DNA from: Patescibacteria group bacterium
GTDB taxonomy: Bacteria; Patescibacteriota; Gracilibacteria; UM-FILTER-43-11
Assembly: GCA_029260955.1 (NCBI GenBank)
Contig: JAJDCF010000014.1
Span: forward strand, 1 to 34,657
Length of the DNA stretch: 34,657 nt
Direction: 5' to 3'
Part shown: one piece after another, positions 24,574 through 33,139 of the stretch
Layout: every line of letters starts with the position of its first letter
Numbering within the stretch: the first letter of the stretch is position 1
Position numbers and translations under genes: made by a program
The notes under the pieces: generated by a model
Told to the model about the DNA's origin: nothing
What the model saw: the letters and a program-made list of their open reading frames with translations, nothing else
Databases searched by the model: none

Positions 24574-24649
24574 TGGAGCCACCTGGCGGGATTGAACCGC
24601 CGACCTACGCGTTACGAGTGCGTCGCTCTACCAACTGAGCTAAGGTGGC
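24574..24649 (-). tRNA. tRNA-Thr(CGT)
   Basis: Cloverleaf GCCACCTTAGCTCAG...CTCGTAA...GGTTCAATCC...AGGTGGC-T-CCA; CCA encoded. Confidence 0.9.
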
Positions 24650-25455: not shown

Positions 25456-25842
25456 TTATCCGAGAGCGGACGCAACGAAGGTGACGATAGTCCAAGAGAG
25501 AAGGATGATCACGATACCGATAACGGCATAAGTGATGATCTTTCGAGCTTTTCCGACTTGTTCGTCGTTTCCTCCAGCAGTGACCATAAGGACACCAGCG
25601 TAGATTAGGAATGCAACGGAAATCAATCCGAGAATTCCCAGGAAGTAGTTGATTATAAGTGTGATGTTCTGCCCTAGGGTTCCTTGAGCTGCGGCAGAAG
25701 GGGCAGCGCCTCCTTGTGGATTATCAAAAAATGATGCGCTTTGAGCGAATGCATTTGTAGCAAATGCTCCGAAAGCGGCCATCATTGAAGAGGTTTTTAA
25801 GGCGAGTTTTTTCATTTTTGTCTTATTAGTTTGTAATTTCAT
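25456..25842 (-). CDS. TrbC/VirB2-like pilin-type small membrane protein
   Basis: Signal-peptide-like N-terminus, two TM helices, FLIYAGVLMVTAGGNDEQVGKARKIITYAVIGIVIILLSW. Confidence 0.75.
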   Translation of the reverse strand: MKLQTNKTKMKKLALKTSSMMAAFGAFATNAFAQSASFFDNPQGGAAPSAAAQGTLGQNITLIINYFLGILGLISVAFLIYAGVLMVTAGGNDEQVGKARKIITYAVIGIVIILLSWTIVTFVASALG

Positions 25843-26730: not shown

Positions 26731-26806
26731 TGGAGCCACCTTCCGGGTTCGAACCGGAGACAATCCGCTTACAAGGCGGGCGCTCTACCAACTGAGCTAA
26801 GGTGGC
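26731..26806 (-). tRNA. tRNA-Thr(TGT)
   Basis: GCCACCTTAGCTCAGTTGG...CTTGTAA...GGTTCGAACC...AGGTGGC-T-CCA. Confidence 0.92.
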
Positions 26807-26879
26807 TTACGATTTACATAGTGCTATTTTTACGCTGCACCGAGCGTACCTATTTTAGCTTTGTCGTCTCTCGACAACG

Positions 26880-26897
26880 CAACTGAGCTAGGGTGGC
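26880..26897 (-). repeat. truncated tRNA 5' end (acceptor strand plus half D-arm)
   Basis: minus strand GCCACCCTAGCTCAGTTG followed by non-tRNA sequence; 1 mismatch to the downstream tRNA-Thr(TGT) 5' end. Confidence 0.8.
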
Positions 26898-26925
26898 CGA
26901 CATTATGCGTCAATTAAATTAATTC

Positions 26926-26972
26926 AATTTTATGCCAGCGTCAATGAATAGATTAGATTATCTGGCAAAATT
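26926..26972. other. inverted repeat between the tRNA cluster and rnpB
   Basis: AATTTTaTGCCAG ... CTGGCAAAATT, 11-bp stem with one bulge. Confidence 0.5.
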
Positions 26973-27007: not shown

Positions 27008-27362
27008 TCTTTTAAACCGTAGTAGTCGCTCTTCCGCCACGGCGGAGGAGAGGAAAGTCCGAGCACCCTAGAGCAAGGGTGGTCGCTAACGGCGACCGGC
27101 GTGTTGGTAACAGCGCGCAAGGGAAAGTGCCACAGAAACTATTTCTTTCGTTTCGACGGATAAGAATGAAAAGTCCGTGATAATTAGCACGGTCCCTCTA
27201 TCAGTGATGTTAGAGGGCGGCAAACCCCACCTGGTGCAAGGTATGCATGGGGGAATGGAATATGTAATGGCTCGTTATACCATTTCTGCTACCGCTTAGA
27301 TAGATGACTACTCGCCTGGCTTCGGCTAGGTGACAGAACTCGGCTTATGAGTTTAAATTTTT
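27008..27362 (+). ncRNA. rnpB: RNase P RNA
   Basis: Conserved core GAGGAAAGTCCGAGC, GGGAAAGTGCCACAGAAA, GGCAAACCCCACCTGGTGCAAG, ACAGAACTCGGCTTATGAG; P1-like TTTAAAC/GTTTAAA ends; boundaries approximate. Confidence 0.95.
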
Positions 27363-27383
27363 CACTGGCATTTACCTTTTTTT

Positions 27384-32234: not shown

Positions 32235-32310
32235 TGGAGCCACGACCCGGAATCGAACCGGGGACCTCACCCTTACCATGGGTGCGCTCTACCAACTGAG
32301 CTATCGCGGC
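32235..32310 (-). tRNA. tRNA-Thr(GGT)
   Basis: GCCGCGATAGCTCAGTTGG...CACCC-ATGGTAA-GGGTG...TCGTGGC-T-CCA. Confidence 0.93.
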
Positions 32311-32367
32311 TAACTATGATTTCTTCCTACTCTGCGCATCACGACGAGCGCGACGCAGATTCTAAAG

Positions 32368-32385
32368 CAACTGAGCTATCGCGGC
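32368..32385 (-). repeat. truncated tRNA 5' end (acceptor strand plus half D-arm)
   Basis: minus strand GCCGCGATAGCTCAGTTG, exact copy of the start of tRNA-Thr(GGT) 75 bp away. Confidence 0.85.
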
Positions 32386-32426
32386 TTACACATCTTGCCG
32401 ACATAAATTACCTTAGGCCTTGTTTC

Positions 32427-32717
32427 TTAGTCAAGCTTAGAGATCATTTTTCCGATGATTTTGTTTTGACTGACTAGGCCAAAGCTGTCAGTGCTTTCTT
32501 CCGAGTTTGCTCCCCGTAGCCTTAGTCGACCGTCTGAAGTAATGAGTTCGATTCGTTTGACGATGATCAGGTCAGTTTGAATGGGATGTGTTGCTACCAC
32601 AATATCGCCAACTTTATATATGGGCATGGGTAACACGGAAATCCGGTCCCCATTGCAGAGAAGGGGATTCATGGAGTTGCCCGATACCATGTAAGTTGTT
32701 AGCTGGCTGTCATCCAT
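32427..32717 (-). CDS. sodX: S24/S26-type peptidase, putative Ni-SOD maturation protease SodX
   Basis: VSGNSMNPLL (Ser) and DLIIVKRI (Lys) dyad; overlaps the 3' end of sodN by 19 nt. Confidence 0.85.
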   Translation of the reverse strand: MDDSQLTTYMVSGNSMNPLLCNGDRISVLPMPIYKVGDIVVATHPIQTDLIIVKRIELITSDGRLRLRGANSEESTDSFGLVSQNKIIGKMISKLD

Positions 32718-33139
32718 TCGACGTTGCGGTCTTTAGACTTCCAAAAGATTTCGTGAATATTCTTTACGGCTGCCATCAATTCCTCTGCGTGTGCCTGACT
32801 TACCTCTACTTTGCAGCTTGAGCAAAGTTTGGCTGCCTTCCAGAAAATGTCATGAAGTTCAGGGTTGGCTTCCAAATGTTTTGGCTTAAAATAGTCCGTC
32901 CACAGGATTAAAAGTTCATCTTTGCACTTTTGTGCCTGCTCTTCCTTTATTGCAACATATCGAGACAGAGTGTTTTGATAGGTCAGTATGGCAACTTGAT
33001 CGAGTGAGGTTGGCATTTTAAGTGCAATAAGCTTCTTGGTCATAGAAAGAACAGCTTCGGCATTAATACGTGCTGCGGCTGGATCGTAGACTCCACAAGG
33101 GCCATCACAGTGGGCGTGGGCGATTGGTTCTGAATTCAT
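32699..33139 (-). CDS. sodN: nickel-containing superoxide dismutase
   Basis: Ni-hook HCDGPCGVYDPAAARINAEAV after the short propeptide MNSEPIAHA. Confidence 0.94.
   Translation of the reverse strand: MNSEPIAHAHCDGPCGVYDPAAARINAEAVLSMTKKLIALKMPTSLDQVAILTYQNTLSRYVAIKEEQAQKCKDELLILWTDYFKPKHLEANPELHDIFWKAAKLCSSCKVEVSQAHAEELMAAVKNIHEIFWKSKDRNVEWMTAS

Follow-up and report, generated by a model that had tools for sequence, protein, structure and literature searches.

Upstream 5′ pieces of tRNA-Thr at two tRNA-Thr genes of a Gracilibacteria genome and their counterparts in other bacteria

The window analysed here is a stretch of 34,657 nucleotides from a Gracilibacteria genome (G000). It carries on its minus strand an intact tRNA-Thr(GGT) gene at 32235-32310, which is called by ARAGORN and scores 65.6 bits against the Rfam family RF00005. 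Upstream of this gene, at 32368-32385 on the same strand, lies an exact copy of its nucleotides 1-18, GCCGCGATAGCTCAGTTG, which ends in the D-loop after G18. The base that follows, where copy and tRNA part, is C in the copy. GCCGCGATAGCTCAGTTG occurs exactly twice in the window, at 32293-32310 and 32368-32385 on the minus strand, with starts 75 bp apart; at up to three mismatches it has five matches, versus 0.04 expected from shuffles. Chance is therefore excluded as the source of the match. A sequence-only reading of this DNA had reported such an exact repeat, 75 bp upstream of tRNA-Thr(GGT) and diverging in the D-loop, and the sequence match confirms it.

Copy and gene are separated by a 57-nt spacer (32311-32367, minus strand). 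Within it, at 32331-32359, is the TCTGCG...CGCAGA hairpin that the same reading had pointed out. A promoter-like pair of boxes, TTGACT (32429-32434) and TAATTT (32405-32410) with 18 nt between them, can be read on the minus strand upstream of the fragment (32405-32434). Directly upstream of the leader are genes for a nickel superoxide dismutase and a small peptidase of the S24/S26 type (32430-32690 and 32699-33139, minus strand), in an order that is kept in the congeneric genome G008. The TTGACT box is kept there too, and the fragment with its following C is identical in 19 of 19 columns. Of the spacer, the block TAGAATnTGCGTCGCGCnCG is kept and the second half is not; the 5′ arm of the hairpin is largely kept, and the 3′ arm is not. 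The leader also folds no better than shuffles (z of -1.49 for the spacer and +0.64 for fragment plus spacer). The hairpin is present in the window but is not conserved, and the spacer no longer contains a recognisable insert.

The second Thr gene that had been proposed to carry the same truncated leader does so. An intact tRNA-Thr(TGT) lies at 26731-26806 on the minus strand (ARAGORN; RF00005), and a copy of its nucleotides 1-18 is found at 26880-26897, with 17/18 identity and a single mismatch at nt 7 (GCCACCC versus GCCACCT). The breakpoint is the same, after G18 and followed by C. The 73-nt leader body in between (26807-26879, minus strand) consists of a hairpin at 26861-26877 (p 0.012), an A-rich stretch, and the motif GCTCGGT at 26839-26845. 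Upstream of the fragment is TTGACG (26939-26944), 17 nt from TAATTT (26916-26921), on the minus strand (26916-26944) and within upstream regions that align among G000, G008 and a second congener, G009. In both Thr leaders the promoter-like boxes thus stand upstream of the fragments, and none is found in the spacers. In the aligned region of G008, the tRNA start itself stands where G000 has the TGT fragment. About 110 bp from this leader and divergent from it is a class A RNase P RNA (27009-27363, plus strand, 176 bits). A small protein encoded at 25456-25842 (minus strand) matches PF18895, a family of type IV secretion pilins. The remaining Thr tRNA, with anticodon CGT (24574-24649), is located directly behind tRNA-Pro and lacks an upstream copy.

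The tRNA regions of the window genome and of the congeners G008 and G009 were all collected, in line with the tabulation of upstream regions that had been suggested for this genome and its relatives. Upstream 5′ copies are found at 2 of the 35 tRNA genes of the window genome, both Thr, compared with 2/350 at equal score in swapped controls; in relatives, fragments also occur at other tRNA genes. The three congeneric genomes together have six 5′ copies upstream and eight 3′ copies downstream of intact tRNAs, i.e., 14 partial copies on the right side and no real one on the wrong side. The sole wrong-side match is probably a neighbouring tRNA-Ser cut by the end of the locus.

Some of the congener copies are far more complete than those in the window. 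G009 has no fragment at GGT, and instead carries a nearly complete copy of tRNA-Thr(TGT), which scores 43.7 bits against RF00005 and lacks only the T-arm, replaced by TCCCGCCTTGGCGGGA. Among the congener copies, one type of palindrome, TCCCGCCNNGGCGGGA, takes the place of the anticodon arm in those of Gln, Glu and Leu and of the T-arm in that of Thr, and an Arg copy has a 20-bp palindrome inside its T-loop. Other related genera retain nt 1-41 and nt 1-49 of tRNA-Thr(GGT). The 3′-end copies of the congeners, 17-41 nt long, lie downstream of tRNA-Leu, Tyr, Gln, Glu and Arg, several of them with REP-like palindromes in the tRNA arms (L274, L042, L291, L293, L296, L297, L300). Two further observations were made in the window genome. 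An isolated tRNA-like 5′ piece, GATGGACTAGCTCAGTTG, is found near 1494-1511 of locus L012 (G000:C65), a 3-kb locus in which no tRNA is called. A tRNA-Asn(gtt) at G000:C95:9509-9619 (L018, L243) is recognised by ARAGORN only with introns permitted and has an insert of ~37 nt in the anticodon region.

Beyond these genomes the pattern is confined neither to Thr tRNAs nor to one lineage. A motif permitting A, C or T after G18 is found in 7 of the 353 genomes of the class, and all eight hits have C. A scan of the GTDB species collection, which fixed C after G18 and so carries no information on breakpoint or base preference, gave at least 91 matches at 80 loci examined, all of them, among the matches listed, isolated 5′ pieces without a full tRNA. 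The tRNAs behind these pieces are, again among the matches listed, Gly, Val, Lys, Trp, Thr, Phe, Met, Ala and others, in Pseudoalteromonas, Shewanella, Bacteroidota, Gastranaerophilales and other taxa. In a table of 95 distinct spacers, with the class hits added, all seven acceptor letters equal those of the downstream tRNA in 79 pieces. Breakpoint and base preference were judged from the class scan and from scans without a preset breakpoint, one of which drew on loci mostly picked by the pattern. In the latter scans, pieces end at 11-13, 16-19, 25, 41 and 49 nt. A at position 19 occurs in 3 of 60 genomes of one family. The distribution is patchy (18/61 in Pseudoalteromonas, 2/79 in the order Gastranaerophilales, besides the 7/353 of the class). 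Matches to the leader motif in viruses come without a tRNA and appear to be due to chance. Rfam 15 has no family above its gathering score over the leader, and detects only tRNA, plus the RNase P RNA nearby. The 5′ version was not described in the literature covered by a restricted search, with most subscription journals outside its scope. The original observation is therefore correct, and broader than the sequence-only reading supposed: both Thr genes are real cases, but the emphasis on two of them was too narrow, as many tRNA types are involved.

The copies, the side on which they lie, their breakpoints and the palindromes in the arms of the congener copies can all be seen directly in the DNA. 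To account for them, we favor, with somewhat better than even confidence, an origin in which the fragment is the remnant of a tandem tRNA-Thr copy whose D-loop was opened by a hairpin-bearing insert and which then decayed. An additional tRNA-Thr copy would have arisen beside the functional gene, a hairpin-bearing insert would have opened the D-loop of this copy after nt 18, and the 3′ part of the opened copy would have decayed or been lost. Such copies would arise repeatedly; when the copy lies upstream, its 5′ end would survive at the promoter, and when it lies downstream, its 3′ end would survive. As the putative promoter of the tRNA precedes the remnant, the latter would be expected in the transcribed pre-tRNA leader, from which RNase P would remove it on making the mature 5′ end. 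The fragment itself, we infer, has no essential function.

Several findings support this origin. In the Bacteroidota loci L076 and L083, a palindrome is located between nt 18 and nt 19, with tRNA sequence resuming at G19. Since arms and loops opened by palindromes occur in near-whole copies, the 18-nt pieces may be understood as the remains outside a loop opening. Tandem arrays of the form (fragment-spacer)n-tRNA exist, and in other taxa the bases before the fragment resemble those before the tRNA (60% alike over 10 nt, versus 32% when swapped); both would fit tandem duplication. In the window's own cases these preceding bases do not clearly match. The nt 1-41 and nt 1-49 pieces of related genera, the alignment of the TGT fragment with the tRNA start of G008, and the mirror-image arrangement at E. 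coli tyrV described below also count in favor of this origin. A recurrent tandem-duplication/deletion product, one of three options put forward by the sequence-only reading, is thus the best-fitting of them, given the right-side-only copies, the congener copies with palindromes in their loops, and the tandem arrays. Simple decay, however, does not predict that the GGT fragment would stay identical in G008 while part of the spacer diverged, although repeat expansion and contraction could refresh the fragment. Also counted against the remnant origin are the absence of a recognisable insert from the GGT spacer, the invariant C in the class-wide hits, and the likeness of leader bodies at different tRNAs, seen between the TGT body and one in G009 and within another family.

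The last of these findings bears equally on what else the leaders might be. Along its length, the TGT body is homologous to the leader body of a tRNA-Met in G009 (score 28.5, where the best of 2000 shuffles reaches 17.5), and each of the two is preceded by the 5′ end of its own tRNA. Similarly, five Peribacteria-type leaders (Trp twice, Ala, Met twice) have bodies that are alike, each again with the 5′ end of its host tRNA. These relationships would be expected of a tiny mobile cassette that enters tRNA D-loops and restores its target, with the tRNA 5′ end remaining on either flank. We nonetheless regard such a cassette as improbable. An element of 57-76 nt could not bring along the 5′ end of every different tRNA that it entered, and no recombinase is found in the nine nearby proteins scanned. 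A search of the family, which also missed the G009 copy, gave no further instance of the body with a convincing E-value.

Slightly less improbable, in our assessment, is a selected cis-acting leader RNA. Here, the copy of nt 1-18 would pair with nt 66-72 in place of the tRNA's 5′ strand, and parts of the spacer with complementarity to the D/anticodon region would hold or release the tRNA, so as to tune folding or processing. In seven Gracilibacteria leaders, including that of the window TGT gene, a hairpin that differs in sequence among them begins immediately behind TTGC (p 0.000-0.046); the window GGT leader is without one there. CTCGG is found at spacer position 30-37 in six of the seven (one, L209, having been found via that motif), and most of them have GCTCGGT at a similar distance, unlike the window GGT leader. 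The C at position 19 in all class hits is likewise in keeping with selection. In addition, the own tRNA variant is the best pairing partner of the spacer in 19 of 20 Pseudoalteromonas Gly leaders and in 12 of 13 Val leaders (mostly Melainabacteria), and the complementarity of Bacteroidales spacers is strong (z about -4 to -10). The window leaders, by contrast, show no significant complementarity to their tRNAs (z of -0.78 and -0.10; p 0.12 and 0.37), and the patchy occurrence described above also speaks against selection. In predicted folds, the leader copy takes the acceptor strand in 78 of 92 leader-tRNA transcripts. A bistable switch by design was considered on this account and rejected, as shuffled spacers give the same preference for the acceptor swap (0.79 and 0.79); the swap is thus attributable to the fragment together with the energy model and is no sign of design. 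The suggestion of a leader that mimics a D-arm keeps some probability, in that different tRNA genes share leader bodies and, in two other clades, each spacer fits its own tRNA. Because of these shared bodies and matched spacers, a selected leader RNA or mini-cassette keeps some probability, which for a functional leader we would put at low to moderate. We consider it as doubtful as the cassette that the leaders belong to a widespread and uncatalogued kind of pre-tRNA leader RNA, one in which a duplicate of the tRNA 5′ strand, together with a hairpin or antisense segment, would compete with tRNA folding and so control maturation of that tRNA in cis.

The remaining suggestion, that an integrated element was lost and left part of its integrase attachment site behind, is very unlikely to hold. 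Right-side-only copies would be expected here too, and tRNA genes are common integration targets. However, the ends of the copies vary as listed above, the spacers of roughly a hundred cases from different phyla are only tens of bases long, and there are tandem arrays as well as arms replaced by palindromes. No integrase domain is found in the nine window proteins scanned, and E. coli has the same architecture at the 3′ end of a tRNA.

The fragment, if it is the remnant of a loop-opened tandem copy, may yet function as a leader RNA. The recurrent pattern is one of terminal tRNA pieces, 5′ pieces upstream and 3′ pieces downstream, broken in a loop and located beside intact tRNA genes in distant phyla. 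It points to a common route of tRNA gene duplication and of opening by palindromes, and accounts for fragments that tRNA finders miss. Shewanella and Pseudoalteromonas are culturable hosts that carry such leaders, in which an effect on tRNA supply can be tested.

Comparison with known systems sets this pattern apart from some and places it close to another. Integrative elements that target tRNA genes have a duplicated part of the tRNA gene at the far end of the inserted DNA. There it is usually the 3′ end, with the copies kilobases apart, whereas in the window it is the 5′ end at a distance of tens of bases, with no integrase in the nine proteins scanned; the varying ends of the copies also speak against a constant core or crossover. 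The degenerate tRNA copies, such as the Thr copy of G009, resemble tRNA pseudogenes, but the window has a clean terminal piece that matches the adjacent intact gene, in what is predicted to be a transcribed leader. REP-type palindromes are comparable in that palindromes such as TCCCGCCNNGGCGGGA fill the arms of extra tRNA copies in G009; unlike there, TCCCGCCNNGGCGGGA is absent from the window and from the tRNA loci of G000. The closest likeness is to the 178-bp repeats of E. coli tyrT/tyrV (RttR RNA), which are tandem units beside a tRNA gene, each with an exact terminal tRNA piece of 19 nt whose end falls in a hairpin loop. We checked this in the tyrV sequence, where there are 3.1 copies of 178 bp, every one with an exact match to the final 19 nt of the tRNA. 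Exact terminal pieces of the adjacent tRNA and tandem units are likewise part of the pattern described here, the window itself having one unit per gene. The E. coli repeats differ in lying downstream with a 3′ end, and in their longer unit, which encodes RttR and tpr; the window pieces are 5′ ends that lie upstream, and 3′ versions occur in the congeners. The motif GGAYGAGAA precedes tRNA 3′ copies both in the E. coli tyrV repeats and in Patescibacteria, at tRNA-Pro and tRNA-Ser (L214, L037, L044, L030). The part of the tyrV unit just before the 19-nt piece is also tRNA-like (6 of 2000 shuffles are as good), which would weakly fit an opening of the T-loop. Judged by these sequences, E. coli tyrV is the mirror case of the 5′ leader copies.
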